Assembly (NCBI RefSeq): GCF_001429285.1 | Contig: NZ_LMJJ01000042.1 | Coordinates: forward strand, 1 to 64,000 | Length of the DNA stretch: 64,000 bases | Source of the DNA: Ensifer sp. Root278 | GTDB lineage: Bacteria; Pseudomonadota; Alphaproteobacteria; Rhizobiales; Rhizobiaceae | Reading direction: 5' to 3' | Shown: positions 3,629 to 22,448 of the stretch, piece after piece | Numbering within the stretch: position 1 is the stretch's first letter | Layout of the letters: each line of letters starts with the position of its first letter | Position numbers and translations under genes: made by a program | Notes under the pieces: generated by a model | Told to the model about the DNA's origin: nothing | The model's input: the letters and a program-made list of their open reading frames with translations, nothing else | The model's database searches: none

Positions 3629-4801
3629 TCAAGCGCTCTGCTCGACGCCAAATGTCGATAGCAGGCTTTGCATCCGTTGCGCCGCCAGTTCCGGCCGATC
3701 GAGCACATTGGCGCGGTCGGCGAGACGGAAGATGTCGGCATAGTGCAGCGCCCCGCGGGCGGACTGCATGCCGGCGGGCATGGTGAAGTGGCGCTGGTGC
3801 CCGTTCAGCCAGGCAAGGAAAACGACCCCGGCCTTGTAGTATTGCGTAGGCGCCTCGAAGATCTTGCGTGACAACGGCACGGTCGGCTCGATCACGCCGC
3901 GGAAGGTGGCGAGGTCACTCTTGGCGAGTGCTGCGAGCGCCTTGGAGGCGGAGGGTGCCACCGCATCGAAAATGCCGAGCAGGGCGTGGCTAAACTTCGT
4001 GCCGTCGCCTTCGATCAGTTCCGCATAGTTGAAATCGTCGCCGGTAAAGCAGAGCACGCCGTCCGGCAGGCGGTTGCGTAGCGCCACTTCCCTGGCGTTG
4101 TCGAGCAGCGAGATCTTGATGCCTTCGACCTTGTCGCGGTTGGCTTCGATGATCGAGAGCACGGTATCGAGCGCCTGGTCGAAGTCCTCAGAGCCCCAGT
4201 AACCCCGAAGTTGCGGGTCGAACATGTCGCCGAGCCAGTGCAGCACGACCTTGTGTCGGGTCTGGCCGAGGATGCGCCCATAGACATGGCGATAGTCGTC
4301 GGCGGAGCGGGCAACGCGGGCGAGTGCGCGGCTTGCCATCATGATCGCCCTGCCCCCCTCGCCTTCGACGAAGCCGACCTGCTCTTCGTAGGCGGCAATC
4401 ACGTCGTCCAGCGATCGCGCATCGGTCGGCGCCAGGTGGTCGGTGCCGGCACCGCAGGCAAGATCGGCGCCCGGAACCTGCCGCGCGTCCGCAAGCGAGC
4501 GGCGGATCAGTTCCTGCGCGCCCGGCCAGGCAAGGCCCATACCGCGTTGGGCGGTGTCCATCGCCTCGGCGATCTTGAAGCCAAGGCTCCAGAGATGGTG
4601 GCGAAACGCCATCGTCGCCCCCCAGTCGATCGCCGGATTGCCCCAGGGATCGAGATCCCGGAGAGGATCCGAGACCACATGGGCGGCCGCATAGGCGATG
4701 CGGTTGAAGGTCGGCGGCGTCTGCGGCCGTTCGATCGGGGTTCCCGTCAGGCGGTAGTGTTCGAGCGAGCCGTCTTGGTGCGGCAGCGTCAGGCTTGTCA
4801 T
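3629..4801 (-). CDS. DUF993 family protein, dihydrodipicolinate-synthase-like aldolase
   Basis: 390-residue protein of the DUF993 family, which is distantly related to class I aldolases of the DapA/NanA superfamily; reaction unknown. Lys229, in the context VEGIKISLLD, is placed like the Schiff-base lysine of the superfamily, and the later FTGDDFNYAEL and SRKIFEAPTQYYKAGVVF segments resemble the barrel C-terminus. The start was chosen at the complement of 4799-4801 because GGAGGAG lies about 10 bases upstream; an in-frame ATG further out has no such signal. It is divergent from the lacI operon, and a LacI palindrome fills its promoter spacer. Co-regulation suggests it makes or cleaves a hydroxy-keto acid in that pathway, which is inference. 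Confidence 0.8.
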   Translation of the reverse strand: MTSLTLPHQDGSLEHYRLTGTPIERPQTPPTFNRIAYAAAHVVSDPLRDLDPWGNPAIDWGATMAFRHHLWSLGFKIAEAMDTAQRGMGLAWPGAQELIRRSLADARQVPGADLACGAGTDHLAPTDARSLDDVIAAYEEQVGFVEGEGGRAIMMASRALARVARSADDYRHVYGRILGQTRHKVVLHWLGDMFDPQLRGYWGSEDFDQALDTVLSIIEANRDKVEGIKISLLDNAREVALRNRLPDGVLCFTGDDFNYAELIEGDGTKFSHALLGIFDAVAPSASKALAALAKSDLATFRGVIEPTVPLSRKIFEAPTQYYKAGVVFLAWLNGHQRHFTMPAGMQSARGALHYADIFRLADRANVLDRPELAAQRMQSLLSTFGVEQSA

Positions 4802-4833
4802 CGGGGTAGGTCTCCTCCGCGGAAGTTTGTGTT

Positions 4834-4862
4834 GAAATACTTTGGATCGTTCCAAATGGCAA
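4834..4862 (-). promoter_or_regulatory. promoter and LacI operator of the DUF993 gene
   Basis: On the minus strand, TTGCCA (4862-4857), a 17-base spacer and TATTTC (4839-4834) form a sigma70-type promoter. The spacer is filled by the near-palindrome read on the plus strand as TTTGGATCGTTCCAAA (4841-4856), which differs by one base from the perfect copies at 5043-5060 and 19151-19168. Binding there would block RNA polymerase directly. The rest of the 299-bp gap to lacI shows nothing else I can name. Confidence 0.7.
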
Positions 4863-5035
4863 GTGGCATTGTTTTTGGGAATTCGCCAACAGTGTTATCG
4901 GTAGCGGCTCACGTGTGATTACATCGTTGTTTTGTATGGATTTATGTCATCAGGAAGGCGCCAGTATCACTGGCATTTAATGCCGATTGATCGCTAGAAG
5001 AGTCGTTGGTCCAGAAAAAAGTGATCAATCATCTC

Positions 5036-5065
5036 TTGACGAAATTGGAACGTTCCAATTATGAA
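5036..5065 (+). promoter_or_regulatory. promoter and LacI operator of the lacI-led operon
   Basis: TTGACG (5036-5041) and TATGAA (5060-5065) are an acceptable -35/-10 pair with an 18-base spacer. The perfect 18-base palindrome AATTGGAACGTTCCAATT (5043-5060) occupies that spacer. A central CG in an even palindrome is the usual LacI-family operator form. The site lies 40 bp before the lacI gene, so autorepression is likely. Confidence 0.75.
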
Positions 5066-5100
5066 AGAGAAAAGCAGGTACGAGAATTCGGGAGGATGCT

Positions 5101-7139
<2,039 letters not shown>

Positions 7140-7143
7140 ACTC

Positions 7144-8763
7144 ATGTCGATGAACAAGCATATCTCGCCGGCCGAAGCGGCCGCCCTGATCCCGGATGGT
7201 GCGGTGGTTTCCGTCTCGTCGTCCAGCGGACTCGGCTGCCCCGACCTGATGCTGAAGGCGATCGGTGAGCGCTTCGAGGCGACCGGTCATCCGCGCGATC
7301 TCACGACACTGCACCCGATCGCCGCCGGCGACATGAGCGGCATCAAAGGTGTCGACTACATCGCGAAGAAGGGCCTCCTGAAGAAGATCATCGGCGGCTC
7401 CTATCCCTCCGGCCCGTCGAGTGCGGAACCGCCGCTGATCTGGCAGATGATTGGTGCCAACGAGGTGGCCGCCTACAACATTCCCTCCGGCATCCTCTTC
7501 GATATGCACCGCGAGGCGGCCGCCAAGCGGCCGGGCGTCATGACCAAGGTCGGCCTCGACACCTTTGTCGACCCGTCGCGCGAGGGCTGCGCGATGAATG
7601 CTTCGGCGGCCGCCAAGCCGGTGGTCAAGAAGGTCTCGTTCGAGGGCGAGGACTGGCTGTATTTCAAGGCGATTGCGCCGCAGGTGGCCATCATCCGCGC
7701 GACGACCGCGGACGAGCGCGGCAACCTCACCTATGAACACGAGGGCGCTTATCTCGGCGGCCTCGATCAGGCGCTCGCCGCCCGCAACAATGGCGGCATT
7801 GTTATTGCCCAGGTCAAGCGCATCACCAAGGAAGGCTCGTTGAAGCCGCACGACGTGCGGGTGCCGGGTGTCCTCGTGGACTATGTCATCGTCGACCCGG
7901 ACCAGAAGCAGACGACCCAGACGCTTTACGATCCGGCGATCTCGGGCGAGATCTTCCGGCCGCTCGACAGTTTCCGCGTGCCGGAATTCAATATCCAGAA
8001 GGTGATCGCCCGCCGCGTGGCGCAGGAGCTTGAGGTCGGCAGCGCCGTCAATCTCGGTTTCGGCATCTCGGCCAACGTGCCGCGCATCCTGCTTGAAGAA
8101 GGCTTGCATGGCGCGGTCACCTGGGTGATCGAGCAGGGCGCCGTCGGCGGCGTGCCGCTTCTCGATTTCGCTTTCGGCTGCGCCTCGAACGCTGATGCCT
8201 TCATGCCTTCGCCCTACCAGTTCACCTATTTCCAGGGTGCCGGCTTCGACGCGTCGCTGCTCTCCTTCCTCGAGATCGACCGTCACGGCTCGGTCAATGT
8301 CTCAAAGCTCTCGTTCCGTCCGCATGTGACGGCCGGCGCCGGCGGCTTCGTCGACATCACGGCGCGGGCGAAGAAGATCGTCTTTTCCGGCATGTTCAAT
8401 GCCGGCGCCAAGCTTTCGATCGGCGATGGCAAGCTGGTGATCGAGAAGGAAGGCAAGCTGAAGAAGCTGGTCAACGAGGTCGAACACGTCACCTTCTCCG
8501 GCCGTCGCGGCATCGAGCAAGGCCAGGACATCACCTATGTGACCGAGCGCTGCGTGATGAAGCTGACGCCTGAGGGCGTCATGCTGACGGAGATCGCGCC
8601 GGGCGTCGATCTGCAGACCCATATTCTTGATCAGTCGGAGTTTCCGCTGATCGTGTCCAATCAGCTGAAAACGATGGATGCTGCCCTCTTCCAGGACGCA
8701 CTGATCGGGCTTGAGCTGCCGAAAAAGGCGCAGCGTCGGCTCGACGGAGGCCACCATGGCTGA
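7144..8763 (+). CDS. single-chain CoA-transferase (propionate/acetate CoA-transferase family)
   Basis: 539-residue family I CoA-transferase with alpha-like and beta-like halves fused in one chain, as in propionate CoA-transferase and YdiF. It would move CoA from an acyl-CoA to a free acid. The glutamate motif EQGAVGG near residue 330 fits EXGXXG, whose Glu forms the covalent CoA ester. ATG 7144 is taken as the start because it gives a family-length N-terminus (MSMNKHISPAEAAALIPDGA); ATG 7150 is possible. The open frame extends further upstream but that is overlap with the previous gene. It overlaps the crotonase gene by 8 bp. The substrate is probably the carboxylic acid made earlier in this operon; that is inference. 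Confidence 0.9.
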   Translation: MSMNKHISPAEAAALIPDGAVVSVSSSSGLGCPDLMLKAIGERFEATGHPRDLTTLHPIAAGDMSGIKGVDYIAKKGLLKKIIGGSYPSGPSSAEPPLIWQMIGANEVAAYNIPSGILFDMHREAAAKRPGVMTKVGLDTFVDPSREGCAMNASAAAKPVVKKVSFEGEDWLYFKAIAPQVAIIRATTADERGNLTYEHEGAYLGGLDQALAARNNGGIVIAQVKRITKEGSLKPHDVRVPGVLVDYVIVDPDQKQTTQTLYDPAISGEIFRPLDSFRVPEFNIQKVIARRVAQELEVGSAVNLGFGISANVPRILLEEGLHGAVTWVIEQGAVGGVPLLDFAFGCASNADAFMPSPYQFTYFQGAGFDASLLSFLEIDRHGSVNVSKLSFRPHVTAGAGGFVDITARAKKIVFSGMFNAGAKLSIGDGKLVIEKEGKLKKLVNEVEHVTFSGRRGIEQGQDITYVTERCVMKLTPEGVMLTEIAPGVDLQTHILDQSEFPLIVSNQLKTMDAALFQDALIGLELPKKAQRRLDGGHHG

Positions 8764-9535
8764 GGGGCGCATCCGAATTGAGATAGAAGGCGCGATCGCG
8801 ACCATGACGGTCGCCCGCCCGGAAAAGCTCAACGCCTTCGACATCGACATGCTGAAGGCCCTGGCCGCCGCCTGCGATACGGTAGAGGCCGACCGCAACA
8901 TCCGCGTTGTCATCCTCACCGGTGAGGGCAAGGCGTTTTCGGCCGGCGGCGACATCAAGGCCTGGGGCGGCATGGATGCGCCCGCATTCGGTCATGACTG
9001 GGTGCGCTTCGGCCATCGTGTGTTCGAGCGGCTGGCGACGTTGCGCATGCCTGTGATCGCCGCGCTCAACGGCCACGCGCTCGGAGGCGGGCTGGAGCTT
9101 GCGGCCGCGGCCGACATCCGCCTGGCCGAGGCGCAGATCAAGATCGGTCTGCCGGAAACGAGCCTCGGCATGGTTCCCGGTTGGTCGGGCACGCAGCGCC
9201 TGGTCTCGCGCTTCGGTGCCCAGATCGTGCGGCGCATGGTGCTGGGTGGCGAGATGTTCACTGCCGAGACTGCGCTCAAGGAAGGTTTGGTCGATGCCGT
9301 CGTCGAGACCGGCACGGTCCTTGCCGCCGCCCGCGACTACGCGGCGCGTGTTGCGAAGCGCGGCCCGGCGGCGCTCGAAATCTCGAAACTGATGATCGCT
9401 TCGGCGAATGGCGAAGACAATGGCTCGGCGGTCGAGGCTCTCGGCTCGATCCTCGTCGCCAAGACCGGTGATCTCAAGGAAGGCGTTGCCGCCTTTTCCG
9501 AAAAGCGTGAAGCCCAATTCAAGGGAGAATGGTAA
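8756..9535 (+). CDS. enoyl-CoA hydratase/isomerase (crotonase) family protein
   Basis: 259-residue crotonase-fold enzyme acting on an acyl-CoA. Visible are the oxyanion-hole segment SAGGDIKAWGG near residue 60, NGHALGGGLELAAAADIRL near residue 103, and PETSLGMVPGWSGTQRL near residue 129, which carry the two glutamates used by hydratases. The start at 8756 overlaps the CoA-transferase stop by 8 bp, so translation is coupled. Hydratase, isomerase, dehalogenase or retro-aldol activity cannot be told apart by eye. Following a CoA-transferase, it probably acts on the thioester made there. Confidence 0.9.
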   Translation: MAEGRIRIEIEGAIATMTVARPEKLNAFDIDMLKALAAACDTVEADRNIRVVILTGEGKAFSAGGDIKAWGGMDAPAFGHDWVRFGHRVFERLATLRMPVIAALNGHALGGGLELAAAADIRLAEAQIKIGLPETSLGMVPGWSGTQRLVSRFGAQIVRRMVLGGEMFTAETALKEGLVDAVVETGTVLAAARDYAARVAKRGPAALEISKLMIASANGEDNGSAVEALGSILVAKTGDLKEGVAAFSEKREAQFKGEW

Positions 9536-11043
9536 TGACCGTGCTCGTGAAACCCAAGGCGCTTGGCGACCACAAGGTCCGCGCCTTCCAGATGCTGATC
9601 GACGGCAAATGGGTGGACAGCGCCGAGCGGCGCATGATCGAGCGCGTGTCGCCGGGCCATGGCGTCGTCGTCAGCCGCTACCAAGCGGGCACCAAGGCCG
9701 ACGCCGAAAAGGCGATCGCCGCGGCTCGCCGTGCTTTCGACGAAGGCGCCTGGCCGCGCATGACCGCTTCCCAGCGCTCGCTGGTGTTGCTGCGGGCCGC
9801 CGACATCATCGCGGAACGGGCCGATGAACTCGCCTATCTCGACGCGATCGAATCCGGCAAGCCGATCAGCCAGGCCAAGGGCGAGCTTGGCGGCGCGGCC
9901 GATATCTGGCGCTATGCCGCGGCCCTTGCCCGCGATCTGCATGGCGAAAGCTACAACACGCTCGGCGATGGCACGCTTGGTGTCGTGCTGCGCGAAGCGA
10001 TTGGCGTCGTCTCGATCATCACGCCCTGGAACTTCCCGTTCCTGATCGTCAGCCAGAAGCTGCCCTTCGCCTTGGCGGCGGGCTGCACCACGGTGGTCAA
10101 GCCGTCCGAACTGACCTCGGCTTCGACGCTGCTGCTCGGCGAAATCCTCGAAGCGGCTGGCGTCCCTGCTGGCGTCGTCAACATCATCACCGGCACGGGG
10201 CCGGAGGTCGGCGCGCCGATGACGACGCATCCGGATGTGGACATGGTGTCCTTCACCGGTTCGACCGGCGTTGGTCGCCTGACCATGGCCAATGCCGCAC
10301 AGACGCTGAAGAAGGTGTCGCTGGAACTCGGCGGCAAGAACCCGCAGATCGTCTTCCCCGACGCCAATCTCGACGAATTCATCGATGCGGCCGTCTTCGG
10401 CGCCTATTTCAATGCCGGCGAATGCTGCAATGCCGGCTCGCGTCTGATCCTGCATCGCGATATCGCCGACGAGGTGACGCGGCGGATCGCCGAGCTTTCG
10501 GCCAAGGTCAAGGTCGGCGATCCGCTGGATCCGGAAACCCAGGTCGGCGCGATCATCACGCCGCAGCATCTGGAAAAGATTGCCGGCTATGTTTCTGCTG
10601 CATCCAAGGATGGCGCTGCGGTCGCGCATGGCGGCACGGCCCTCGATCTCGGCATGGGTCAGTTCATGGCGCCGACGATCCTCTCGGCCGTGCGCCCCGA
10701 CATGGCGGTGGCGCGCGAGGAAGTGTTCGGCCCGGTTCTTTCGGTATTGACCTTCGAGACGACCGAGGAAGCGATCAGCATCGCCAATGCGATCGACTAC
10801 GGTCTTTCGGCCGGCGTCTGGAGCCGCGACTTCGACACCTGCCTGATGATCGGCCGCCGCGTGCGCGCCGGCACCATCTGGATGAATACCTTCATGGATG
10901 GCGCGTCCGAGCTGCCCTTCGGCGGTTACCGCCAGTCCGGCCTCGGCCGCGAGCTCGGCCGACATTCGGTCGAGGATTACACCGAGACCAAGACGCTCAA
11001 CATGCATATGGGGCCGCGCACCGGCTGGTGGATGCCGCGTTAA
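9535..11043 (+). CDS. NAD(P)-dependent aldehyde dehydrogenase
   Basis: 502-residue aldehyde dehydrogenase, last gene of the lacI-led operon. Motifs: the TPWNFPF nucleotide-site segment, FTGSTGVGR, LELGGKNPQIVF with the general-base Glu, and NAGECCNAGSRL, where one cysteine of the pair is the nucleophile. ATG 9535 overlaps the upstream TAA by one base (TAATG) and has GGGAG 7 bases before it; ATG 9529 is less well placed. It resembles the betaine/gamma-aminobutyraldehyde group, but substrate cannot be deduced. In this pathway it may oxidise the aldehyde released by the DUF993 aldolase-like protein (inference). Confidence 0.92.
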   Translation: MTVLVKPKALGDHKVRAFQMLIDGKWVDSAERRMIERVSPGHGVVVSRYQAGTKADAEKAIAAARRAFDEGAWPRMTASQRSLVLLRAADIIAERADELAYLDAIESGKPISQAKGELGGAADIWRYAAALARDLHGESYNTLGDGTLGVVLREAIGVVSIITPWNFPFLIVSQKLPFALAAGCTTVVKPSELTSASTLLLGEILEAAGVPAGVVNIITGTGPEVGAPMTTHPDVDMVSFTGSTGVGRLTMANAAQTLKKVSLELGGKNPQIVFPDANLDEFIDAAVFGAYFNAGECCNAGSRLILHRDIADEVTRRIAELSAKVKVGDPLDPETQVGAIITPQHLEKIAGYVSAASKDGAAVAHGGTALDLGMGQFMAPTILSAVRPDMAVAREEVFGPVLSVLTFETTEEAISIANAIDYGLSAGVWSRDFDTCLMIGRRVRAGTIWMNTFMDGASELPFGGYRQSGLGRELGRHSVEDYTETKTLNMHMGPRTGWWMPR

Positions 11044-11145: not shown

Positions 11146-12210
11146 TCAGCCCGCCGTGCTGAAACTCGCGGGGATCTGCGGACAGAGCAACAGTTGCAGC
11201 TTACTGACGTCGCTTTCGCCGCCGATCTTCTGCAGGAGCACCTGGCCCATGTCCTCGCCGGTTGCCGTCAGGTCTTCGTAGATCGTCTCGACCTGCGGCT
11301 GGATGGCGCTCAGCAGATGCGAGGTCTGCTTGGCGACGATGTCGTATTCGCGGCCAAGCGTCAGCCCGCAATCGCTCATGCCGGTGATGGTTGCGAGCGC
11401 GCAGACCTCCCCGCCGCACATGAAACTGTCCGGCGGACCGGGCTCGGCGTAGCGCTGCCGGATACGGTCGCGGATCGCGCCGGCGGGGCTATCAAGGTCG
11501 ATGCCGGTGAGGATCTCATAGGCGCAGCCGGCCTCGCGCACGGCGGTCATGAAGCCATGCTGCAGATGACCGGCGAAGGTGAAACCGGCGGGACCGCTGA
11601 TGAGAGCCGGCTTGCGCCTGCCCTTGGCGATCAGGCGTTTCGTCGCCTGGTAGGAAAAGGTGAAGTTGTCGTAGTCGACATAGGGATGCGGGGTGGAAAG
11701 CTCAGTGCGCCCATGGGTGACGAAGGGAAAGCCGAGATCCGACAGCAGCCGGACGCGGGGATCGAGCGGTTCCGTGCGCGAGAAGATCAGGCCGTCGGCC
11801 ATGCCGTTGCGGGTGATGTAGTTGACCGCCTCGACATTGGTCGAATTCAGGAAGTTCGGCATGACGATCAGGTGAAACGCCGTGCCCTGCAGCGCCTTGG
11901 CGATGCCGCTCATGATCGACGTGCCGTAGCCCAGGATTTCCTCATGCGGGTCGAGCAGCACGCCGATGACATTGGTGCGGCCGGTCTTCAGGCGCTGGGC
12001 GGCGCGGTCGGGCGAGTAGCCGATCTCATCGGCGACCTCGCGCACCCGCTTGCGGGTATCGAGCGAAATCTGCGGCGCATCGGAAAGCGCGCGGGATACG
12101 GTGGTGACCGCAAGGCCGGTGATTTCCGCGATCGTGCGAAGGGTCGGCTTGCCGCGCTTGGCGGTGGAGCCACCGTCTTCGCGATGGGCGGGCTTGGAGG
12201 GATCGGCCAA
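11146..12210 (-). CDS. LacI family transcriptional regulator (second), candidate regulator of the sugar ABC operon
   Basis: 354-residue LacI-family repressor with an N-terminal extension of about 22 residues before the helix-turn-helix (LRTIAEITGLAVTTVSRALS) and a YSPDRAAQRLKTGRTN hinge, then the sugar-sensing domain. It resembles the AglR branch that controls alpha-glucoside or glucose uptake in rhizobia, by memory. It is divergent from the importer operon across a 303-bp region carrying two AAAACGTTTT-type palindromes. It is convergent with the preceding operon; the 102-bp gap there shows no clear terminator. Its predicted operator differs from that of the first LacI, so the two regulators should act independently. 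Confidence 0.92.
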   Translation of the reverse strand: MADPSKPAHREDGGSTAKRGKPTLRTIAEITGLAVTTVSRALSDAPQISLDTRKRVREVADEIGYSPDRAAQRLKTGRTNVIGVLLDPHEEILGYGTSIMSGIAKALQGTAFHLIVMPNFLNSTNVEAVNYITRNGMADGLIFSRTEPLDPRVRLLSDLGFPFVTHGRTELSTPHPYVDYDNFTFSYQATKRLIAKGRRKPALISGPAGFTFAGHLQHGFMTAVREAGCAYEILTGIDLDSPAGAIRDRIRQRYAEPGPPDSFMCGGEVCALATITGMSDCGLTLGREYDIVAKQTSHLLSAIQPQVETIYEDLTATGEDMGQVLLQKIGGESDVSKLQLLLCPQIPASFSTAG

Positions 12211-13758: not shown

Positions 13759-13767
13759 CGGGCTCGT

Positions 13768-14809: not shown

Positions 14810-15690
14810 TGAGCGCTCCGAGCCCAGACAACATCATCTCGCACAACCGCCTCACCCGTGCGCTGATCTATACCGCACTGATCCTTTTCGCGCTCTATTC
14901 GCTGCTGCCGCTCTATGTGATGCTGGTGAATTCGGTGAAGCCGCTCGATGAGATCCGCCAGGGCGGCATGCTCAACCTGCCGCAAACCTTTACCATCGAG
15001 CCCTGGCTTCAGGCCTGGTCGACGGCGCAGATCGGTGTGCAGCCGACCGGCCTGAAACCCTTCTTCATCAACTCGATCCTGATGGTGGTGCCGGCCGTGG
15101 CGATCTCGACGATCATCGGCGCGCTCAATGGCTACGTGCTGACGAAGTGGCGCTTTCCCGGTGCCAACATCTTCTTCGGCATGCTGCTCTTGTCCTGCTT
15201 CATCCCGTTCCAGATCGTGCTGATCCCGATGGCGCGCATCCTCGGTATCCTGGGGCTCGCCGGTTCGATCTGGGGCCTGATCTTCGTCCATGTGATCTAC
15301 GGCCTGGGCTTCACGACGCTTTACTTCCGCAACTACTACGAGGCGTTTCCGACGGAACTGGTGCGCGCGGCGCAGATCGATGGCGCCAGCTTCTTCCAGA
15401 TCTTCTGGCGCATCCTCCTGCCGTCGTCCGGCCCAATCATCGTCGTTTCGGTCATCTGGCAGTTCACCAACATCTGGAACGACTTCCTGTTCGGTGCGTC
15501 TTTCTCCGGCCCCTATTCGACGCCGATGACGGTCGCGCTCAACAACCTCGTTTCGTCCTCGACCGGGGTCAAGGAATACAACGTTCACTTCGCAGGCGCG
15601 ATCCTTGCCGCCCTGCCAACGCTCATCGTCTACATCGTGTCCGGCCGCTACTTCGTTCGCGGGCTGATGTCGGGCGCCGTGAAAGGATAA
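14809..15690 (+). CDS. ABC sugar permease, second subunit (CUT1, MalG/GtsC type)
   Basis: 293-residue inner-membrane subunit with six predicted helices. The EAA loop reads ELVRAAQIDGASFFQIFWRI and is followed by LLPSSGPIIVV. The N-terminal segment LYSLLPLYVMLVNSVKP is typical of MalG-type subunits. It is translationally coupled to the previous gene by a one-base overlap and is followed 4 bp later by the ATPase gene. Together the two permeases form the channel heterodimer. Confidence 0.9.
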   Translation: MSAPSPDNIISHNRLTRALIYTALILFALYSLLPLYVMLVNSVKPLDEIRQGGMLNLPQTFTIEPWLQAWSTAQIGVQPTGLKPFFINSILMVVPAVAISTIIGALNGYVLTKWRFPGANIFFGMLLLSCFIPFQIVLIPMARILGILGLAGSIWGLIFVHVIYGLGFTTLYFRNYYEAFPTELVRAAQIDGASFFQIFWRILLPSSGPIIVVSVIWQFTNIWNDFLFGASFSGPYSTPMTVALNNLVSSSTGVKEYNVHFAGAILAALPTLIVYIVSGRYFVRGLMSGAVKG

Positions 15691-15694
15691 GCTC

Positions 15695-16807
15695 ATGTCT
15701 TTCTTGAAAATCAGCAACCTGCGCAAATCCTATGGCTCGCTCGAGATCCTGAAGGACATCAACCTGGAGATTGAAAAGGGTGGTTTCCTCGTGCTCGTCG
15801 GCCCCTCGGGCTGCGGCAAGTCCACGCTTCTCAACACGATTGCCGGCCTTGAGCCGATCACGTCGGGGGAGATCGCCATCAACGGCCGGTCGGTCGCCGA
15901 TCTGCATCCGTCGAAGCGTGACATCGCCATGGTGTTCCAGTCCTACGCGCTCTATCCGAACATGACTGTCGCCGGAAACATCGCCTTCGGCATGGAAATC
16001 CGCGGCGTGCCGAAGGACGAGCGCGAGAAGGCGATCAAGCAGGTCGCCGACATGCTGCAGATCGGCCATCTGCTCGACCGCAAGCCGAGCCAGCTTTCCG
16101 GCGGCCAGCGCCAGCGCGTCGCCATGGGCCGTGCGCTGGTGCGCAACCCGCAGGTCTTCCTGTTCGACGAGCCGCTCTCCAACCTCGACGCCAAGCTGCG
16201 CGTCGACATGCGCACCGAGATCAAGCGCCTGCACCATCGCATGAAGACGACGATCGTCTACGTCACGCACGACCAGATCGAGGCGATGACGCTAGCGACC
16301 AAGATCGCGGTCTTGAAGGACGGCGTGCTGCAGCAGTTCGGAACGCCGGCGGAGATCTACAACAATCCGGCCAACATGTTCGTCGCCGACTTCATGGGCT
16401 CGCCGGCGATGAACCTGTTGACGGCGCGCATCGAAAAGAGCGGTTCCGACGTTGCCGTCACGCTCGCGCGCCCGAACGCTGAGCCGATGAAGCTGGCGGT
16501 GCCGCATAACGGCGCGCTCGCCGCCTATGCCGGCAAGGACGTCGTCTTCGGCATCCGTCCGGAAGCGCTGACCGATCCTGACGGGGCCGACCGCAATGCC
16601 AAGGCGATCGTCGAAGGCGAATGCCTGATCGAGGTGGTTGAGCCCGCGGGTTCGGACACCTTCGCGGTGACCCGTCTCGGCGGCAAGGAGGTCGTTGCCC
16701 GCCTGCGCGCCGATGCGCGCATCGCCCCAGGCCAGACCTCGCGCCTTGCCTTCAACCTCGACAAGGCGGTGTTCTTCGACCCGCAGAGCCAACAGCGGAT
16801 CGTGTAA
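15695..16807 (+). CDS. ABC importer ATP-binding protein (MalK/UgpC type)
   Basis: 370-residue ATPase energising the sugar importer. Walker A GPSGCGKST near residues 37-45, Q-loop in MVFQSYALYP, signature LSGGQRQRVAMGRAL near residue 134, Walker B FLFDEPLSNLDAKL and the switch histidine in VTHDQIEAM are all intact. The last 120 residues form the TOBE/regulatory domain found in MalK-type ATPases (FGIRPEAL). It starts 4 bp after the second permease and ends 6 bp before the GMC oxidoreductase gene, so transport and oxidation are in one operon. Confidence 0.92.
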   Translation: MSFLKISNLRKSYGSLEILKDINLEIEKGGFLVLVGPSGCGKSTLLNTIAGLEPITSGEIAINGRSVADLHPSKRDIAMVFQSYALYPNMTVAGNIAFGMEIRGVPKDEREKAIKQVADMLQIGHLLDRKPSQLSGGQRQRVAMGRALVRNPQVFLFDEPLSNLDAKLRVDMRTEIKRLHHRMKTTIVYVTHDQIEAMTLATKIAVLKDGVLQQFGTPAEIYNNPANMFVADFMGSPAMNLLTARIEKSGSDVAVTLARPNAEPMKLAVPHNGALAAYAGKDVVFGIRPEALTDPDGADRNAKAIVEGECLIEVVEPAGSDTFAVTRLGGKEVVARLRADARIAPGQTSRLAFNLDKAVFFDPQSQQRIV

Positions 16808-16813: not shown

Positions 16814-18313
16814 ATGCAGGAGCAGCCGGACATCGTCATCATCGGGTCGGGTATCGGCGGCTCCACCATTGCGGCGGGGCTTGCCGGCTCCGGTGCCCGC
16901 ATCGCCATCCTCGAGCGCGGCGAGCGCCTGCCCGATACGCCGGAGGCGCGCAGCTACAGCTCGATCTTCGTCAAGGGCCATTTCCGGCCCAGGGAGATGT
17001 GGCGCGAGCCCGATGGTACCGAATTCAATCCGGGAAATTTCTACTTCGTCGGCGGCAATTCCAAGCTCTTCGGCGCGGTGCTCCTGCGCTACCGGGCCGA
17101 AGATTTCACCGAGATGCAGCACCTTGGCGGCGTCTCGCCGGCCTGGCCCTTTCCCTATGAGGAACTGGAGCCATGGTACGGCAAGGCCGAGCAATTGTTC
17201 GAGGTGCGCGGCGAGCTGGGCCAGGACCCGACCGAGCCGTTCCACGCTTCGCCCTATCCTCACGGCCCGGTACCGGACGAGCCGGCGATTGCCCGCGCGC
17301 GCGCCGAGTTGAAGGCGCAGGGACTGCACCCGGCGACGCTGCCGCTCGGTGTCGATATCGAGACGTGGCTCGCCGGCGGGCGCACGCCATGGGATGGATT
17401 TCCCAATACCGGCAAGGGCAAGAAGGATGCCGAGACCGCATCGCTCGCGGCCGCTCTGAAGGACCCGAATATCGAGCTGATCACCTCAGCCCATGTCGAC
17501 ACGCTGGAGGCAGGCCCGGGCGGGCGGATCGAGGCGATCCACTACACCCACAGGGGCGAGAGGAAGCGCCTGTCGCCGAAGCTGGTGATCCTGTCGGCGG
17601 GCGCGATCAATTCGGCGGCCATCCTGCTGCGCTCCGGCGACGGCAAGGGGCTGGCAAACGCTTCCGACCAGGTCGGCCGCAACTTCATGAACCACAATTG
17701 CAGCGCCATGCTGGCGATCAATCCGTTCAGGCGCAACGACAGCATCTACCAGAAGACGCTGATGCTGAACGACTATTACCTGACCGGCGGTAGGGATGGC
17801 CTGCCACTCGGCAATGTCCAGCTGCTCGGCAAGATCAATGCCGACATCCTCAAGGCCAATGCGCCGATCTGGGGGCCACGCTTCGCCTTCGACTTCATGG
17901 CCGGTCATGCGGTCGACTGGTACATGATGACCGAGGACCTGCCGAACCCGGAAAGTCGTATCATGGTCGACGGCAAGGGCATCATCATGCAGTGGCGGCG
18001 CTCGAACATGGAGGCACTTTCCGGGCTCGAAGCGAAGATGCGCGCGCACTTCAAGGCCGCCGGCTATCCGATCGTGCTTTCCCAGGCCTTCGACAAGCGC
18101 ACGCCGTCGCACCAATGCGGCACGGTGCGAATCGGCACCGACCCGAAGGACGCGCCGCTCGACGTCTATTGCCGTGCCTTCGACCACCCCAATCTCTTCG
18201 TCGTCGACGCCGCCTTTCTGCCCACGTCCGCCGCCGTCAATCCGGCGCTGACGGTTGCCGCCCAGGCGCTGCGCGTCGCCGACCATATCGTTGCGAAGGA
18301 GTTCCGATCATGA
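16814..18313 (+). CDS. GMC family FAD-dependent oxidoreductase (first)
   Basis: 499-residue flavoprotein of the glucose-methanol-choline family. The FAD motif IIGSGIGGSTIAAGL lies at residues 8-22, the second FAD segment is FVGGNSKLFGAVLLRYR near residue 78, and the C-terminal substrate domain ends with TPSHQCGTVRIG (catalytic-type His) and NPALTVAAQALRVADHI. No signal peptide is seen. It is the fifth gene of the importer operon and overlaps the SDR gene by 4 bp (ATGA). It probably oxidises the imported sugar or a derivative, perhaps to a keto-sugar; the electron acceptor is unknown. It is not close in layout to the choline-dehydrogenase-type protein at 19193. Confidence 0.88.
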   Translation: MQEQPDIVIIGSGIGGSTIAAGLAGSGARIAILERGERLPDTPEARSYSSIFVKGHFRPREMWREPDGTEFNPGNFYFVGGNSKLFGAVLLRYRAEDFTEMQHLGGVSPAWPFPYEELEPWYGKAEQLFEVRGELGQDPTEPFHASPYPHGPVPDEPAIARARAELKAQGLHPATLPLGVDIETWLAGGRTPWDGFPNTGKGKKDAETASLAAALKDPNIELITSAHVDTLEAGPGGRIEAIHYTHRGERKRLSPKLVILSAGAINSAAILLRSGDGKGLANASDQVGRNFMNHNCSAMLAINPFRRNDSIYQKTLMLNDYYLTGGRDGLPLGNVQLLGKINADILKANAPIWGPRFAFDFMAGHAVDWYMMTEDLPNPESRIMVDGKGIIMQWRRSNMEALSGLEAKMRAHFKAAGYPIVLSQAFDKRTPSHQCGTVRIGTDPKDAPLDVYCRAFDHPNLFVVDAAFLPTSAAVNPALTVAAQALRVADHIVAKEFRS

Positions 18314-19089
18314 CGTCATCGACGCGTCCCGTCGCCATCGTCACCGGCGGCCGCCGCGGCATCGGGCTCGGCGTTGCCCGCGCGCTTGCGCGCGACGGTT
18401 TCGACATCGCCATCACCGGTCTCGGCGCTCCAGACACTGCCACGGACCAGACGCTTGCCGAACTTGCGGGCGACAGCGGCCGGGCCATCTACATCGAGGC
18501 CAATCTTGCCGATGTCGGCGGGCATGGCGCCACCGTTGAGCGCGTTCGCGCCGAGCTCGGCCCGATCCGCTGCCTCGTCAACAATGCCGGCATCGCCTCG
18601 GTCGTCAGGGGTGACTTTCTCGACCTGCTGCCGGAGAATTTCGACACGATCGTCGCCACCAACCTGCGCGGCACGGTGTTTTTCACCCAGGCCGTTCTGG
18701 TGTCGATGCTGACCGATCCGGCCGATGTGACGCCGCGATCGATCATCAACATCACCTCGGTTTCGGCGACGATGAGTTCGCCGGAGCGGCTCGACTATTG
18801 CATGACCAAGGCCGGGCTTGCCGCCTTCAGCCAGGGTCTGGCGCTCCGGCTCGCCAATACCGGAATCTCGGTCTTCGAGATCCGGCCGGGCATCATCCGC
18901 TCCGACATGACCGCGGGCGTCTCGGCGAAATACGACACACTGATCGATGGCGGGCTGGTGCCGATGCGCCGTTGGGGCGAGCCGGAGGATATCGGCAACA
19001 TGGTGGCCGGTCTCGCCGGCGGCACTTTCGGCTTTGCCACGGGTTCCGTCATCCAGGCGGATGGCGGCCTTTCGATCGGCCGACTCTAG
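18310..19089 (+). CDS. short-chain dehydrogenase/reductase, probable 3-ketoacyl-ACP-reductase-like
   Basis: 259-residue SDR. The cofactor motif is VTGGRRGIGLGVARAL at the N-terminus, the structural motif LVNNAGIAS near residue 91, the catalytic Ser in NITSVSATMS and the YCMTK pair near residues 161-165. The C-terminus ends in the usual FATGSVIQADGGLSIG. The start at 18310 overlaps the GMC stop (ATGA). It is the last gene of the importer operon and probably reduces or oxidises the product of the GMC enzyme; the substrate is unknown. A shorter reading is not possible without losing the Rossmann motif. Confidence 0.9.
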   Translation: MTSSTRPVAIVTGGRRGIGLGVARALARDGFDIAITGLGAPDTATDQTLAELAGDSGRAIYIEANLADVGGHGATVERVRAELGPIRCLVNNAGIASVVRGDFLDLLPENFDTIVATNLRGTVFFTQAVLVSMLTDPADVTPRSIINITSVSATMSSPERLDYCMTKAGLAAFSQGLALRLANTGISVFEIRPGIIRSDMTAGVSAKYDTLIDGGLVPMRRWGEPEDIGNMVAGLAGGTFGFATGSVIQADGGLSIGRL

Positions 19090-19150: not shown

Positions 19151-19168
19151 ATTTGGAACGTTCCAAAT
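19151..19168. promoter_or_regulatory. perfect LacI-type operator before the second GMC gene
   Basis: ATTTGGAACGTTCCAAAT is a perfect 18-base palindrome sharing its 14-base core with the operators at 5043-5060 and (one mismatch) 4841-4856. It ends 10 bp before the ribosome binding site of the GMC gene, so repression may be by roadblock. A clear -35/-10 pair is not evident nearby; readthrough from the importer operon is possible. Confidence 0.75.
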
Positions 19169-19192: not shown

Positions 19193-20848
19193 ATGAGCTA
19201 CGACTACATCATCACCGGTGCCGGCCCGGCCGGCTGCGTTCTTGCCAACCGGCTCTCCGAGGATCCGTCGGTTCGCGTGCTGCTGCTGGAAGCCGGTGGC
19301 GGCGACTGGAATCCGCTGTTCCACATGCCGGCCGGCTTTGCCAAGATGACCAAGGGTGTTGCCAGCTGGGGCTGGGAGACCGTCCCGCAGAAGCACATGA
19401 AGGGCAGGGTGCTGCGCTATACCCAGGCCAAGGTCATTGGCGGCGGCTCCTCGATCAACGCCCAGCTCTACACCCGCGGCAACGCCGCCGACTACGATCT
19501 CTGGGCTTCCGAGGACGGCTGCGCCGGCTGGGACTATCGCAGCGTGCTTCCCTATTTCAAACGCTGCGAAGACAACCAGCGCTTTGCCGACGACTATCAC
19601 GCCTATGGCGGCCCGCTCGGCGTCTCAATGCCGGTCTCGGCGCTGCCGATCTGTGACGCCTATATCCGCGCCGGCCAGGAACTCGGCATTCCCTATAACC
19701 ACGATTTCAACGGCCGCCAGCAGGCGGGCGTCGGCTTCTACCAGCTCACCCAGCGCAACCGTCGCCGCTCGAGCGCATCGCTTGCCTATCTTTCGCCGAT
19801 CAAGGACCGCCGCAACCTCACGGTCCGGACCGGCGCGCGCGTCGCGCGGATCGTGCTTGAGGGCACCCGCGCCGTCGGCGTCGAAGTCGTCACCGGCAAG
19901 GGTAGCGAGATCATCCGGGCGGAGCGTGAAGTGCTTGTCTCCTCCGGCGCCATCGGTTCGCCAAAGCTCTTGCTACAGTCCGGCATCGGCCCGGCCGATC
20001 ACCTGAAGTCGGTCGGCGTCGCGGTGAAGCACGACCTGCCCGGGGTCGGCGGCAACCTGCAGGACCACCTCGATCTCTTCGTCATTTCTGAATGCACCGG
20101 CGACCACACCTATGACGGTGTGGCGAAACTTCATCGTACGCTATGGGCCGGGCTGCAATATGTGCTGTTCCGTTCCGGTCCGGTCGCGTCCTCGCTCTTT
20201 GAAACCGGGGGCTTCTGGTATGCCGATCCCAATGCGCGCTCGCCGGATATCCAGTTCCATCTGGGGCTTGGCTCCGGCATCGAGGCCGGCGTCGAAAAGC
20301 TGAAGAACGCCGGCGTGACGCTCAATTCCGCCTATCTGCATCCGCGCTCACGCGGCACGGTCCGGCTTTCGTCCTCGGATCCGGCGGCAGCGCCGCTCAT
20401 CGACCCCAACTATTGGGAGGATCCGCACGATCGCAAGATGTCGATCGAGGGGCTAAAGATCGCCCGCGAGATCATGCAGCAGGCGGCGCTGAAGCCTTTC
20501 GTGATGGCGGAACGTCTTCCCGGCAATTCGGTCATCAGCGATGAACAGTTCTTCGACTACGGCTGCGCCAATGCCAAGACGGATCACCACCCCGTCGGAA
20601 CCTGCAAGATGGGGACGGACGCCATGGCGGTGGTCGACCTCGATCTCAAGGTGCGGGGGCTGGAGGGACTGCGCGTCTGCGACAGCTCGGTGATGCCGCG
20701 CGTTCCCTCTTGCAACACCAACGGGCCGACGATCATGATGGGGGAGAAGGGCGCCGACATCATTCGCGAGCGCCAGCCCCTGCCGCCTGCCATCTTTTCC
20801 CACGAACGTAACGACAGCCGCCCGCGCGCCCGCGCCGATATCCGTTGA
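19193..20848 (+). CDS. GMC family FAD-dependent oxidoreductase, choline/alcohol dehydrogenase type (second)
   Basis: 551-residue flavoprotein. The FAD motif IITGAGPAGCVLANRLS is at the N-terminus, the GMC signature AKVIGGGSSINAQLYTRG lies near residue 80, and the C-terminal active-site segment is TDHHPVGTCKMG, followed by NTNGPTIMMGEKGAD. It belongs to the branch of choline dehydrogenase and AlkJ-type alcohol dehydrogenases. The start at 19193 has GGAGG 10 bases before it. The gene is first of a three-gene unit with the Dabb and glycerate-kinase genes, under a palindrome shared with the first lacI operon. It probably oxidises a primary or secondary alcohol in that pathway. Confidence 0.9.
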   Translation: MSYDYIITGAGPAGCVLANRLSEDPSVRVLLLEAGGGDWNPLFHMPAGFAKMTKGVASWGWETVPQKHMKGRVLRYTQAKVIGGGSSINAQLYTRGNAADYDLWASEDGCAGWDYRSVLPYFKRCEDNQRFADDYHAYGGPLGVSMPVSALPICDAYIRAGQELGIPYNHDFNGRQQAGVGFYQLTQRNRRRSSASLAYLSPIKDRRNLTVRTGARVARIVLEGTRAVGVEVVTGKGSEIIRAEREVLVSSGAIGSPKLLLQSGIGPADHLKSVGVAVKHDLPGVGGNLQDHLDLFVISECTGDHTYDGVAKLHRTLWAGLQYVLFRSGPVASSLFETGGFWYADPNARSPDIQFHLGLGSGIEAGVEKLKNAGVTLNSAYLHPRSRGTVRLSSSDPAAAPLIDPNYWEDPHDRKMSIEGLKIAREIMQQAALKPFVMAERLPGNSVISDEQFFDYGCANAKTDHHPVGTCKMGTDAMAVVDLDLKVRGLEGLRVCDSSVMPRVPSCNTNGPTIMMGEKGADIIRERQPLPPAIFSHERNDSRPRARADIR

Positions 20849-20855
20849 GGTCCCC

Positions 20856-21173
20856 ATGATCCGCCATTGCGTCTTCATCCGCTTCCGCCCCGAAATCTCC
20901 GAGGAGGAGAAAGCAACGATCTTCGACGAGATCGTCGCGCTGAAATCACGGTTGCCGGGTTTCATGGCAGCCCATATCGGTGGCAATGTCAGCCCGGAAG
21001 TGGGCATGGACAAGGGCCATGGCCTAGGTTTCATCGTCGACTTCACCGATGCGGCGGCCCGCGACGCCTACCTGGAAGACGAGGCGCACCGCAAGACCGG
21101 CGCCAAGATCGTCGCTGCGGCCGAAGGCGGCGTTGCCGGTATCTTCGTCTACGACCTCGAAATTGCCGATTGA
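20856..21173 (+). CDS. Dabb family (stress-responsive A/B barrel) protein
   Basis: 105-residue small alpha/beta-barrel protein. The N-terminus MIRHCVFIRFRPEISEEEKA is the Dabb pattern, with the first strand carrying the HxV/F element and the later strand GFIVDFTDAAARDAYLEDEAHR. Members are dimeric; some are enzymes and many are of unknown role. It lies 7 bp after the GMC gene and directly abuts the glycerate-kinase gene, so it is part of the catabolic operon. It may be a small isomerase or lyase of this pathway, which is speculation. Confidence 0.85.
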   Translation: MIRHCVFIRFRPEISEEEKATIFDEIVALKSRLPGFMAAHIGGNVSPEVGMDKGHGLGFIVDFTDAAARDAYLEDEAHRKTGAKIVAAAEGGVAGIFVYDLEIAD

Positions 21174-22448
21174 GTGACGATCATGCTCGAAGCGCGCCCG
21201 TTCCTGACCCGGCTATTCGAGGAAGCCGTAAGAGCCGCCGACCCCTATGAGGCAATCAAGGCGCATCTGCCCGATCCGCCAAAGGGGCGGACCGTGGTCG
21301 TCGGCGCCGGCAAGGCGGCGAGCCAGATGGCGGCCGCCTTTGAGCGGCTCTGGAAGCATCCGTTGAGCGGGACGGTGGTGGCACGACACGGCCCGATCGA
21401 ACATTGCGAGCGGATCACGGTGCTGCAATCGGCCCACCCTGTGCCGGACGAAGCCGGCCTCGCGGCCTCGAGCGTGCTGCTTTACGCCGTCTCCAACCTG
21501 ACAGCCGACGATCTCGTGGTTGCGCTGGTTTCCGGCGGCGGCTCGGCCCTGCTGCCGGCGCCGCCTGAAGGCTTGACGCTTGCCGACGAGATTGCGGTCA
21601 ACAAGGCGCTCCTTGCTTCCGGTGCACCGATCTCAGCAATGAATGTTGTCCGCAAGCACGTGTCGCGCATCAAGGGCGGTCGGCTCGCTGCGGCGGCTTT
21701 CCCGGCGCGTGTCGTCAGCCTGGTGGTCTCCGACGTGCCCGGCGACAATCCGGCGTTCGTCGCCTCCGGCCCGACCGTTCCGGATCGCACTACGGCGGCG
21801 GAGGCACTTGATATCGTTGCCCGTTACCGCATGGCGCTGCCCGATGGGGTGATGGCGCATCTGCGCTCGGAAGCGGCAAGAGCGCCCGATCCGGACGATC
21901 TGCGTTTTGCCGGACATGAATGCCACGTGATCGCTTCGGCGAGCGTGTCTCTCGAAGCGGCCGCGGCCAAGGCGCGCGAACTCGGCATCGAGGCGCGCAT
22001 TCTATCCGATGCGATCGAGGGAGAGGCGCGTGATATCGGCCGTATGCATGCGGCGCTCGCTCGTGAGGTGGCGCTCAGGAGCCGCCCCTTCGAAAAGCCG
22101 GTGGTGCTGCTTTCCGGCGGCGAGACGACCGTGACGATCTCAGGCAAGGACTACGGAAAGGGTGGGCGCAACAGCGAATTGCTGCTGTCGCTGGCGCTCG
22201 ACATCGACGGCGTGGATGGCATCGATGCGCTTGCCGCCGATACGGATGGAATCGACGGTTCCGAGGATAATGCCGGCGCCTTTGCCGACGGTGAGAGCAT
22301 AACCCGCATGCGGGCGGCCGGCATCGATCCGCGCCTGCACCTCGCCCGCCATGATGCCTGGTCGGCCTTTGCCGCGAGTGGTGATCTCTTCGCGCCCGGA
22401 CCGACCGGAACGAACGTCAACGATTTCCGGGCGCTGCTGATCCGCTAG
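21174..22448 (+). CDS. glycerate 2-kinase / hydroxypyruvate-reductase-type protein (MOFRL, DUF4147)
   Basis: 424-residue member of the TtuD/GckA family, which phosphorylates glycerate to 2-phosphoglycerate, feeding lower glycolysis; older annotations call it hydroxypyruvate reductase. Typical segments are VVVGAGKAASQMAAAFE near residue 40, VSGGGSALLPAP near residue 120, VSDVPGDNPAFVASGPTVPD and the MOFRL-domain ALAADTDGIDGSEDNAGA near the end. GTG 21174 directly follows the Dabb stop (TGAGTG); ATG 21183 is an equally plausible start. As last gene of the LacI-linked operon it suggests that the pathway yields glycerate. A terminator follows. Confidence 0.88.
   Translation: MTIMLEARPFLTRLFEEAVRAADPYEAIKAHLPDPPKGRTVVVGAGKAASQMAAAFERLWKHPLSGTVVARHGPIEHCERITVLQSAHPVPDEAGLAASSVLLYAVSNLTADDLVVALVSGGGSALLPAPPEGLTLADEIAVNKALLASGAPISAMNVVRKHVSRIKGGRLAAAAFPARVVSLVVSDVPGDNPAFVASGPTVPDRTTAAEALDIVARYRMALPDGVMAHLRSEAARAPDPDDLRFAGHECHVIASASVSLEAAAAKARELGIEARILSDAIEGEARDIGRMHAALAREVALRSRPFEKPVVLLSGGETTVTISGKDYGKGGRNSELLLSLALDIDGVDGIDALAADTDGIDGSEDNAGAFADGESITRMRAAGIDPRLHLARHDAWSAFAASGDLFAPGPTGTNVNDFRALLIR

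Follow-up and report, generated by a model that had tools for sequence, protein, structure and literature searches.

A LacI-linked operator motif and a candidate regulon for 1,5-anhydro sugar breakdown in Ensifer sp. Root278

The closest described route for 1,5-anhydro sugars is that of S. morelense S-30.7.5, a strain isolated with 1,5-anhydrofructose as sole carbon source. As far as PMC12441222 outlines it, this route starts with a 1,5-anhydrofructose reductase and proceeds to mannose by way of a P450-like enzyme yet to be identified (Kuhn, Yu, Giffhorn 2006). The same source describes an anaerobic 1,5-anhydroglucitol-6-phosphate pathway in E. coli (YbiW/PflD) that depends on a glycyl-radical enzyme together with a PTS. 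In a 64-kb stretch of DNA from Ensifer sp. Root278 (the window), an ortholog of the reductase lies among three transcription units preceded by one palindromic motif. We find that a LacI-repressed regulon for aerobic 1,5-anhydrohexose breakdown best explains this arrangement, with a probability of roughly 0.6.

Operator sites and their conservation

The core palindrome TTGGAACGTTCCAA occurs exactly at 5045-5058 and 19153-19166 and with one mismatch at 4842-4855, where the 14-base site reads TTGGATCGTTCCAA. An earlier note on this DNA had proposed that one such operator links the units headed by the DUF993 gene, lacI, and the second GMC gene (GMC2) (Table 1). Its exact core at O3 and one-mismatch copy at O1 reappeared in our site scan. 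The perfect palindrome it gave for 5043-5060 holds for the 14-base core, whereas this place departs from the 16-mer TTTGGAACGTTCCAAA by two mismatches. No further TTGGAACGTTCCAA site within 1 mismatch was found in the window besides O1-O3, as the note had stated. The note was also right in its gene calls for the three units and in placing the sites directly before gene starts, the genes beginning at ≈4801 (minus strand), 5101, and 19193.

Table 1. Features of the candidate regulon in the window
Feature	Position	Strand	Remarks
DUF993 protein (PF06187), DHDPS-fold TIM barrel	3629..4801	-	618 bits; start ≈4801
Putative operator O1 (TTTGGATCGTTCCAAA)	4841..4856		precedes DUF993 gene
Putative operator O2 (AATTGGAACGTTCCAATT)	5043..5060		precedes lacI
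LacI-family repressor	5101..6141	+	start GTG at 5101; family search
1,5-Anhydro-D-fructose reductase ortholog (Gfo/Idh/MocA)	6138..7139	+	structure-sequence matches
Class I CoA-transferase (CoAT), YdiF-type	7144..8763	+	2ahu, 386 bits
Crotonase/enoyl-CoA hydratase (ECH)	8756..9535	+	family search
Aldehyde dehydrogenase (ALDH)	9529..11043	+	closest relative of solved structure is 7w5l, an L-sorbosone dehydrogenase (554 bits)
Second LacI, local to importer operon	11146..12210	-	family search
Importer sugar-binding protein	12514..13758	+	4r2b, 775 bits
Importer: two permeases and ATPase	13931..16807	+	family search
GMC1, FAD glucose/fructose dehydrogenase-like	16814..18313	+	6a2u, 119 bits
Short-chain dehydrogenase (SDR)	18307..19089	+	family search
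Putative operator O3 (ATTTGGAACGTTCCAAAT)	19151..19168		precedes GMC2
GMC2, choline-dehydrogenase-like alcohol dehydrogenase	19193..20848	+	start ATG at 19193
Dabb protein	20856..21173	+	family search
Glycerate 2-kinase (DUF4147/MOFRL)	21174..22448	+	family search

Dinucleotide shuffles held a mean of 0.01 sites per window at up to 1 mismatch, and none of 100 reached three. At up to 3 mismatches the shuffle mean rises to 1.54 and three matches are reached in 16 of 100, so the significance is carried by the near-exact matches. A whole-genome scan found no copy of TTGGAACGTTCCAA within 1 mismatch beyond O1-O3, and this scarcity, together with the shuffles, rules out a chance palindrome. Searched genome-wide with up to 2 mismatches, the 16-mer marks the O1-O3 places and C42:280364 (2 mismatches); with up to 3 mismatches it marks 12 places, against 10 for the reversed control. 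The C42:280364 site, outside the 1-mismatch set, lies ≈170 bases before a gene that by eye resembles 5-aminolevulinate synthase (L084).

The earlier note would have given up its reading had the palindrome been common genome-wide or absent before orthologous genes in related species; within 1 mismatch it is confined to O1-O3, and in relatives it is present before the orthologous genes. In all 16 genomes of the genus, O1 is kept within 2 mismatches and O2 and O3 within 1. O1 forms a conserved island inside a diverged intergenic region, and at O3 the mean majority-base share is 0.98 in the core versus 0.76 and 0.57 in the flanks. Among 151 family genomes the exact motif is found in 17, all of them among the 39 that carry a CoA-transferase ortholog (identity of 63% or more, paralogous clusters left out; Fisher p 4e-12 with kinship ignored). 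In each of these 39 genomes (the 17 with the exact motif, 18 represented by L116-L133, and G023, G098, G103, and G062), a site within 2 mismatches adjoins lacI, the reductase, or the CoA-transferase. Of 80 named loci, collected by searching with the reductase, 79 have at least one operator and 77 have two or more. G043 carries a site before its GMC gene as well. Additional 1-mismatch matches occur in G004 and G015; the extra G004 site lies inside an open frame and is taken as chance. The motif is rare and, in many genera, conserved with the same genes, which supports the central claim of the earlier note, and the DUF993, lacI, and GMC2 units almost certainly form one regulon under a single predicted operator.

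The regulator combines a helix-turn-helix with a periplasmic-binding-type sensor domain (PF00356, PF13377), and its gene adjoins the reductase in all 80 named loci, which were themselves found via the reductase. The palindrome precedes lacI itself and its putative targets and is conserved together with lacI; we infer that LacI binds it. By eye, O1 is flanked on the minus strand by the hexamers TTGCCA and TATTTC, which are spaced by 17 bases; O2 fills a spacer of 18 bases that separates TTGACG (5036) from TATGAA, and O3 has no clear −10 hexamer. These hexamers are by-eye calls because a sigma-70 promoter scan around the operators gave no promoter at its threshold. Both O1 and O2 thus take up the space separating a −35-like from a −10-like hexamer, so that polymerase would be blocked by LacI bound there, and the imported sugar or an intermediate would release LacI. 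SMc04401 of S. meliloti is, judging by its locus tag, probably the ortholog of this LacI. The earlier note had called the regulon undescribed, a word that needs care: a binding matrix for SMc04401 was already used in PMC4560400, the available text of which gives no function for it.

Enzymes and importer of the regulon

The Gfo/Idh/MocA gene is, by sequence, an ortholog of the characterized 1,5-anhydro-D-fructose reductase, matching 4koa with 644 bits and 2glx with 621 bits, and the next family with 120 bits. It has EKP at 93 and DITVH at 176 (D-x3-H), which we take to be the Gfo/Idh catalytic motifs. This orthology gives the pathway a likely entry compound, and the earlier note's statement that no known pathway name could be attached is not supported. 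The CoA-transferase keeps its EQGAVGG motif. The nearest solved relative of the crotonase is the 3-hydroxypropionyl-CoA dehydratase 5zai, and both expected catalytic Glu residues are present at the positions usual for the family. In the 80 reductase-found loci, these enzymes recur 79 times (CoA-transferase), 78 times (crotonase), and 76 times (aldehyde dehydrogenase).

The earlier note described the layout correctly, with a sugar importer and its own LacI between two of the units, but missed that the importer, GMC1, and the SDR belong to the same system. In several genera no second LacI separates the importer from the aldehyde dehydrogenase that precedes it, and the second LacI is found in 27 of the 80 named loci. 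G115 (L068, L092) and G062 (L115) carry a single operator-led row, reductase-CoAT-ECH-ALDH-importer-GMC1-SDR-GMC2-Dabb-DUF993-LacI, and 17 loci of the Brucella/Ochrobactrum group have the row LacI-reductase-CoAT-ECH-(ALDH)-GMC1-SDR-GMC2, in which GMC2 is 72-86% identical to ours. We reject the reading of the importer and its LacI as an independent system, since the importer is part of the main row in other genera. The other relatives of its binding protein are named sugar- or glucose-binding proteins; the importer may therefore carry glucose.

The reading of glycerate delivery rests on the glycerate kinase. Two genus genomes (the window and L082) and one MAG (L221) carry it in the cluster; outside the genus it is found in L221 and paralogous clusters only, many stretches ending before its place, and it is missing from the joint rows of G115 and G062. 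A second cluster in the same genome (L085) brings together GMC, CoA-transferase, crotonase, glycerate kinase, and DUF993 genes.

In a Foldseek search with DUF993, 4dnh, a solved structure of the DUF993 family, ranks first, and the listed ranks 2-50 are DHDPS-family chains, with target-normalized TM values of 0.66-0.83 and 11-16% identity. Lys229 is invariant in 11 aligned sequences and lies within strand 225-231; a forced global profile alignment, a weak match with a probability of 3.6%, pairs it with the GVKD lysine. AMDTAQ replaces the strand-2 GTTGE, the carboxylate motif of DHDPS/NAL enzymes, and His188 their strand-5 Tyr, as placed by that weak alignment and the strand order. DUF993 is a candidate Schiff-base lyase that, for want of both features, we do not file as a pyruvate aldolase; an ordinary KDG/pyruvate aldolase is further weakened by its co-occurrence with the reductase. 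Counting against the proposed regulon, DUF993 was not detected in six named loci with a full 10 kb upstream (L197, L200, L209, L217, L221, and L223), and a match without a reductase ortholog occurs in 16 of 151 family genomes. Across the class, 25 of 289 genomes have DUF993. Within the limited literature collection searched, no paper on DUF993 or PF06187 was found, and the regulon gives this family a biological context.

Proposed pathway and alternative readings

The substrate class is likely 1,5-anhydro sugars, namely 1,5-anhydro-D-fructose and, probably, 1,5-anhydromannitol or 1,5-anhydroglucitol. A glucose-type ABC importer would take up the sugar, the reductase would convert the 2-keto sugar to 1,5-anhydromannitol, and the GMC and aldehyde dehydrogenases would oxidize alcohol groups to an acid, of which the CoA-transferase would form the thioester. 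The crotonase could then remove and add water next to the thioester and so open the ring ether without an oxygenase or radical enzyme; such CoA-dependent ring opening is a tentative proposal that we regard as possible at best. The keto sugar may be the substrate of DUF993, whose lysine would serve in retro-aldol cleavage or dehydration. The former would split 1,5-anhydrofructose at C3-C4 and the latter would yield an ascopyrone-like compound, between which sequence cannot choose. Products would leave as C3 acids, in this genus with glycerate passing through the 2-kinase.

The strongest challenge to this scheme is a different substrate for the regulon, some other glucose-like sugar or a glucoside that is oxidized to a keto sugar and an acid; the reductase would then use a related 2-keto compound, and its 1,5-anhydrofructose activity would be incidental. 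The reductase is absent from 7 of the 39 family genomes with the CoA-transferase, so the substrate common to them all may be a compound other than 1,5-anhydrofructose. Those seven loci all keep the crotonase and aldehyde dehydrogenase, and six keep the importer, the seventh (L072) stopping at a contig end before the importer's place. The glucose-binding protein among the binding-protein relatives and the resemblance of GMC1 to glucose/fructose dehydrogenases fit this alternative. By annotation order, we take smc04396 of S. meliloti to be the ortholog of the importer gene in the window. Dextrin induces smc04396, as reported in PMC4960864, which fits this alternative as well. The reductase, however, is the most specific clue, its source strain having been isolated on 1,5-anhydrofructose, as PMC12441222 relates, and it adjoins lacI throughout the reductase-found loci; we consider another sugar unlikely.

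Less probable still, and in our view improbable, is that the published route is complete, with 1,5-anhydrofructose reduced to anhydromannitol and an oxygenase elsewhere in the genome leading to mannose as given in PMC12441222, while the CoA and GMC genes form a side stream. A Pfam scan of 20 window genes found no P450-type oxygenase, and the recurrence of the CoA-transferase, crotonase, and aldehyde dehydrogenase with the reductase also argues against a side stream. That a different regulator binds the palindrome, or that O3 is not a working operator, might be suspected from the missing −10 hexamer at O3, the empty promoter scans, and G115, whose linked LacI is only ≈41% identical yet both operators are exact, but is very improbable given the co-occurrence of motif and lacI, the O3 site in 16/16 genus genomes, and the G043 site before the GMC gene.

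The 1,5-anhydrohexose regulon, in its fullest form, would encode an oxygen-tolerant, oxygenase-free route from anhydrohexitol to acid, CoA ester, and crotonase ether opening, and DUF993 would be the first of a new class of Schiff-base lyases that act on ring-ketone sugars. We put this forward as a speculative and rather doubtful extension; if true, it would be the missing aerobic path for 1,5-anhydro sugars. The regulon also offers a short list of candidates for the later 1,5-anhydrofructose steps; these, like its importer, regulator, and operator, can be tested in S. meliloti.

Comparison with known systems

The end of the non-phosphorylative Entner-Doudoroff pathway consists of an aldolase, a glyceraldehyde dehydrogenase, and a glycerate 2-kinase. 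The regulon resembles it in joining an aldolase-fold protein, an aldehyde dehydrogenase, and a glycerate 2-kinase, but differs in that a CoA-transferase and a crotonase are included and DUF993 is without the pyruvate-type motif. With the DHDPS/NAL aldolase superfamily, DUF993 shares the fold (Foldseek), and its Lys229 is a candidate for the strand-6 lysine by the 3.6% profile alignment, whereas it has His188 for the strand-5 Tyr and AMDTAQ for the strand-2 GTTGE. The E. coli YbiW/PflD pathway handles the same substrate class and must likewise open the 1,5-ether; the scan of 20 window genes found neither a glycyl-radical enzyme nor a PTS.

The S. morelense S-30.7.5 route shares the reductase family (2glx/4koa), a related host family, and an aerobic setting. 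Unlike that account, the present locus ties a regulator, operators, an importer, GMC enzymes, a CoA-transferase, a crotonase, an aldehyde dehydrogenase, and DUF993 to the reductase. Local LacI regulons such as those of ThuR and AglR, as PMC4052901 presents them, likewise have an autoregulated lacI adjoining sugar-catabolic genes and a palindrome with a central CG; here, in contrast, three units that lie apart in this genus are joined, and CoA-ester enzymes take the place of kinases and hydrolases.

Putative operator sites in the window and in Rhizobiaceae

The regulon marked by the 14-base palindrome TTGGAACGTTCCAA is real and widely conserved. An earlier note had placed this palindrome before the genes for DUF993, LacI, and GMC2 (putative operators O1, O2, and O3) and nowhere else in the window. 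Our scan agrees, with two exact copies, one copy carrying a single mismatch, and no further site at ≤1 mismatch in the window; three such sites were reached in 0 of 100 dinucleotide shuffles of the window. The genome-wide search that the note proposed returned the same three sites alone at ≤1 mismatch (7.1 Mb, 44 contigs), and the 16-mer at ≤2 mismatches added one place. That 16-mer match, with two mismatches, precedes a gene resembling 5-aminolevulinate synthase by eye. Hexamers picked by eye put O2 in the 18-base gap between TTGACG (5036) and TATGAA, and O1 in the 17-base gap between TTGCCA and TATTTC; promoter scans returned nothing at the tool threshold. The GMC2 start lies 26 bases past the end of the O3 core, which has no clear −10 element beside it.

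Coordinates of features in the window and elsewhere in the Ensifer sp. Root278 genome
Feature	Position	Strand	Remark
DUF993 gene	3629-4801	-	
O1 core	4842-4855	-	1 mismatch
O2 core	5045-5058		exact
lacI	5101-6141	+	
Reductase (Gfo/Idh)	6138-7139	+	
Second LacI	11146-12210	-	
AACGTTTTAAAT	12285-12296		exact
AACGTTTTAAAT	12421-12432		exact
Importer	12514-16807		
GMC1	16814-18313		
O3 core	19153-19166		exact
GMC2	19193-20848	+	
Omega-aminotransferase and PuuR-like pair	22560-24594		
Long open frame	31638-40277		2879 codons
16-mer match	C42:280364-280379		2 mismatches
Second cluster (L085)	C16:44000-57407		

Among related rhizobia, where the earlier note had also suggested looking, all three sites are kept in 16 of 16 genus genomes (O1 at ≤2 mismatches, O2 and O3 at ≤1), and stray one-mismatch matches there number two in total, one each in G004 and G015. 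The sites form conserved islands amid diverged intergenic DNA; the mean majority-base share is 0.98 in the O3 core versus 0.76 and 0.57 in its 40-base flanks. The exact core occurs in 17 of the 151 genomes of our family sample, genus members counted in, and outside the genus all 15 genomes with it have it beside lacI, CoA-transferase, reductase, or DUF993 orthologs. A CoA-transferase ortholog (≥63% identity) is present in 39 of the 151, a count that leaves out paralogous-cluster copies in G097, G112, and G117 (the last excluded because it is 70% identical and its genome carries a paralogous DUF993 cluster, L110). The exact core is found in 17 of these 39 genomes versus 0 of the 112 without the ortholog, in which the scan covered exact copies only; the other 22 have sites at ≤2 mismatches (18 genomes, plus G023, G098, G103, and G062). 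A search with the reductase as query gave 80 named loci, the best 80 of 92, from Ensifer, Sinorhizobium (including S. meliloti 4H41), Aminobacter, Rhizobium, Ciceribacter, Brucella/Ochrobactrum, Hoeflea, Bradyrhizobium, and others. Across these 80, lacI adjoins the reductase in every case; 79 carry one operator or more (the exception, L160, is a 5.1-kb contig), and 77 carry at least two.

SMc04401 is probably the S. meliloti counterpart of the present LacI. PMC4560400 worked with an SMc04401 binding matrix, with a mean regulon size of 4.04 in S. meliloti; the main text of PMC4052901 contains no 'SMc04401'. Two further papers give SMc04390, SMc04391, and SMc04392, which by annotation order would be GMC2, SDR, and GMC1, with negative log2 changes (PMC12542648) and report induction of smc04396 by dextrin (PMC4960864). 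None of the matches listed for DUF993, PF06187, or anhydro sugars describes the regulon, subscription papers being mostly outside their coverage.

Joint gene rows and neighboring genes

In genome G115, two exact operators precede a single gene row, which runs reductase, CoA-transferase, crotonase, aldehyde dehydrogenase, binding protein, two permeases, ATPase, GMC1, SDR, GMC2, Dabb, DUF993, and LacI. The G062 row (L115) is the same except that another binding-protein-like gene precedes the ATPase, and the operators ahead of it carry one and two mismatches. LacI, reductase, CoA-transferase, crotonase, GMC1, SDR, and GMC2 also occur together in 17 loci from Brucella, Ochrobactrum, Falsochrobactrum, or a Rhizobiales isolate; L208 is the only one of them in which no aldehyde dehydrogenase was detected. 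The second cluster of the Root278 genome, L085, combines GMC, CoA-transferase (69%), crotonase (56%), glycerate kinase (64%), SDR, DUF993 (56%), and an acyl-CoA dehydrogenase-like gene read from sequence, with no operator at ≤2 mismatches; similar clusters are L087 and L088 (G009 and G001), and partial ones L110–L112. These joint rows support one pathway independently of the motif. L085 also carries two aldo/keto-reductase-like genes and etfBA-like genes.

An in-cluster glycerate kinase is seen in the window, L082 (G009), and L221; the G115 and G062 rows have none, and most 10-kb flanks stop short of its place. The importer's own LacI is present in only 27 of the 80 named loci (best 80 of 92). 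The AACGTTTTAAAT copies before the importer operon, the one at 12421-12432 overlapped by a third site with one mismatch, are probably operators of this second LacI. GMC1 is 92–99% identical in nine near-species loci (L145–L149, L168, L170, L178, L222) and ~59–68% in other named loci where seen (L151, L171–L176, L190–L212; S. meliloti 66%), unlike the S. meliloti importer, which is 92–95% identical to the window's, so replacement of GMC1 is possible. An omega-aminotransferase gene (AptA model, above cut-off) and a PuuR-like cupin regulator gene, side by side, adjoin the regulon but lack the operator. The long open frame suggests a cyclic beta-glucan synthase by size.

DUF993 and its genomic company

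The sole solved relative of DUF993 by sequence is 4dnh (57% identical), named SMc04132 of S. meliloti; since the S. meliloti 4H41 cluster gene (L151) is 84% identical to the window's, 4dnh is probably a paralog, not an ortholog. The predicted structure (pLDDT 82.8, 11 sequences; other four models 66–72) has the DHDPS fold, judging by the structure matches listed (ranks 2–50), and the invariant Lys229 is located in its strand 6. DUF993 has His188 at the place of the DHDPS Tyr and AMDTAQ at that of GTTGE; the profile alignment used in this placement is weak by itself.

In the 151-genome sample, DUF993 is present in 32 of 32 reductase genomes (≥50% identity); in 31 of them the two genes share a contig and lie no more than 16 kb apart. 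It is absent from the stretch fetched around the CoA-transferase in all seven genomes without the reductase, three of which carry it elsewhere. A further 16 genomes, lacking the reductase, also have a DUF993 match, which brings the overall count to 48 of 151, one a short fragment. DUF993 is found in 72 of the 80 named loci (best 80 of 92); of the others, two are short contigs (L160 and L220) and six are true misses at the threshold used (L197, L200, L209, L217, L221, and L223). Sixteen DUF993 loci were examined outside this cluster and the paralogous ones; a Gfo/Idh gene 23–28% identical to the reductase adjoins DUF993 in 14 (L089, L090, L096–L107), and L108 and L114 have none beside it. DUF993 thus mostly accompanies an enzyme potentially able to form or consume a ring ketone. 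Importer permeases lie near the pair in 10 of the 14 loci, and in L089 the other side is occupied by a TIM barrel resembling xylose isomerase.

Enzyme assignments and a candidate route

Against solved proteins, the Gfo/Idh protein scores 644 bits with 4koa, a 1,5-anhydro-D-fructose reductase, 621 bits with 2glx, and 120 bits with the next relative. The CoA-transferase belongs to the YdiF type. The crotonase has retained the two glutamates expected of it, and its nearest solved relative is 3-hydroxypropionyl-CoA dehydratase; for the aldehyde dehydrogenase this is L-sorbosone dehydrogenase, at 554 bits. GMC1 is similar to FAD glucose and fructose dehydrogenases, GMC2 is a choline-dehydrogenase-type enzyme, and the DUF4147/MOFRL kinase is closest to glycerate 2-kinase models, scoring under their cut-offs. 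The importer binding protein matches 4r2b, presumably a glucose-containing structure, at 775 bits over 392 residues; its more distant relatives include sugar- and glucose-binding proteins.

The regulon's substrates are likely 1,5-anhydro sugars. The reductase and DUF993 look like an entry branch to a shared core of importer, GMC enzymes, aldehyde dehydrogenase, CoA-transferase, and crotonase. Oxidation would be followed by thioester formation and then by crotonase chemistry, which could open an ether adjoining an activated carboxyl group; we infer the step order, the carbon oxidised, and the part played by DUF993, and this candidate route is unusual. In the Rhizobiaceae route described in PMC12441222, a specific reductase converts 1,5-anhydrofructose to 1,5-anhydromannitol, and a P450-like hydroxylation, by an enzyme left unidentified, then leads to mannose (citing Kuhn 2006). 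The gene content of the regulon suggests a continuation other than this P450-like step.
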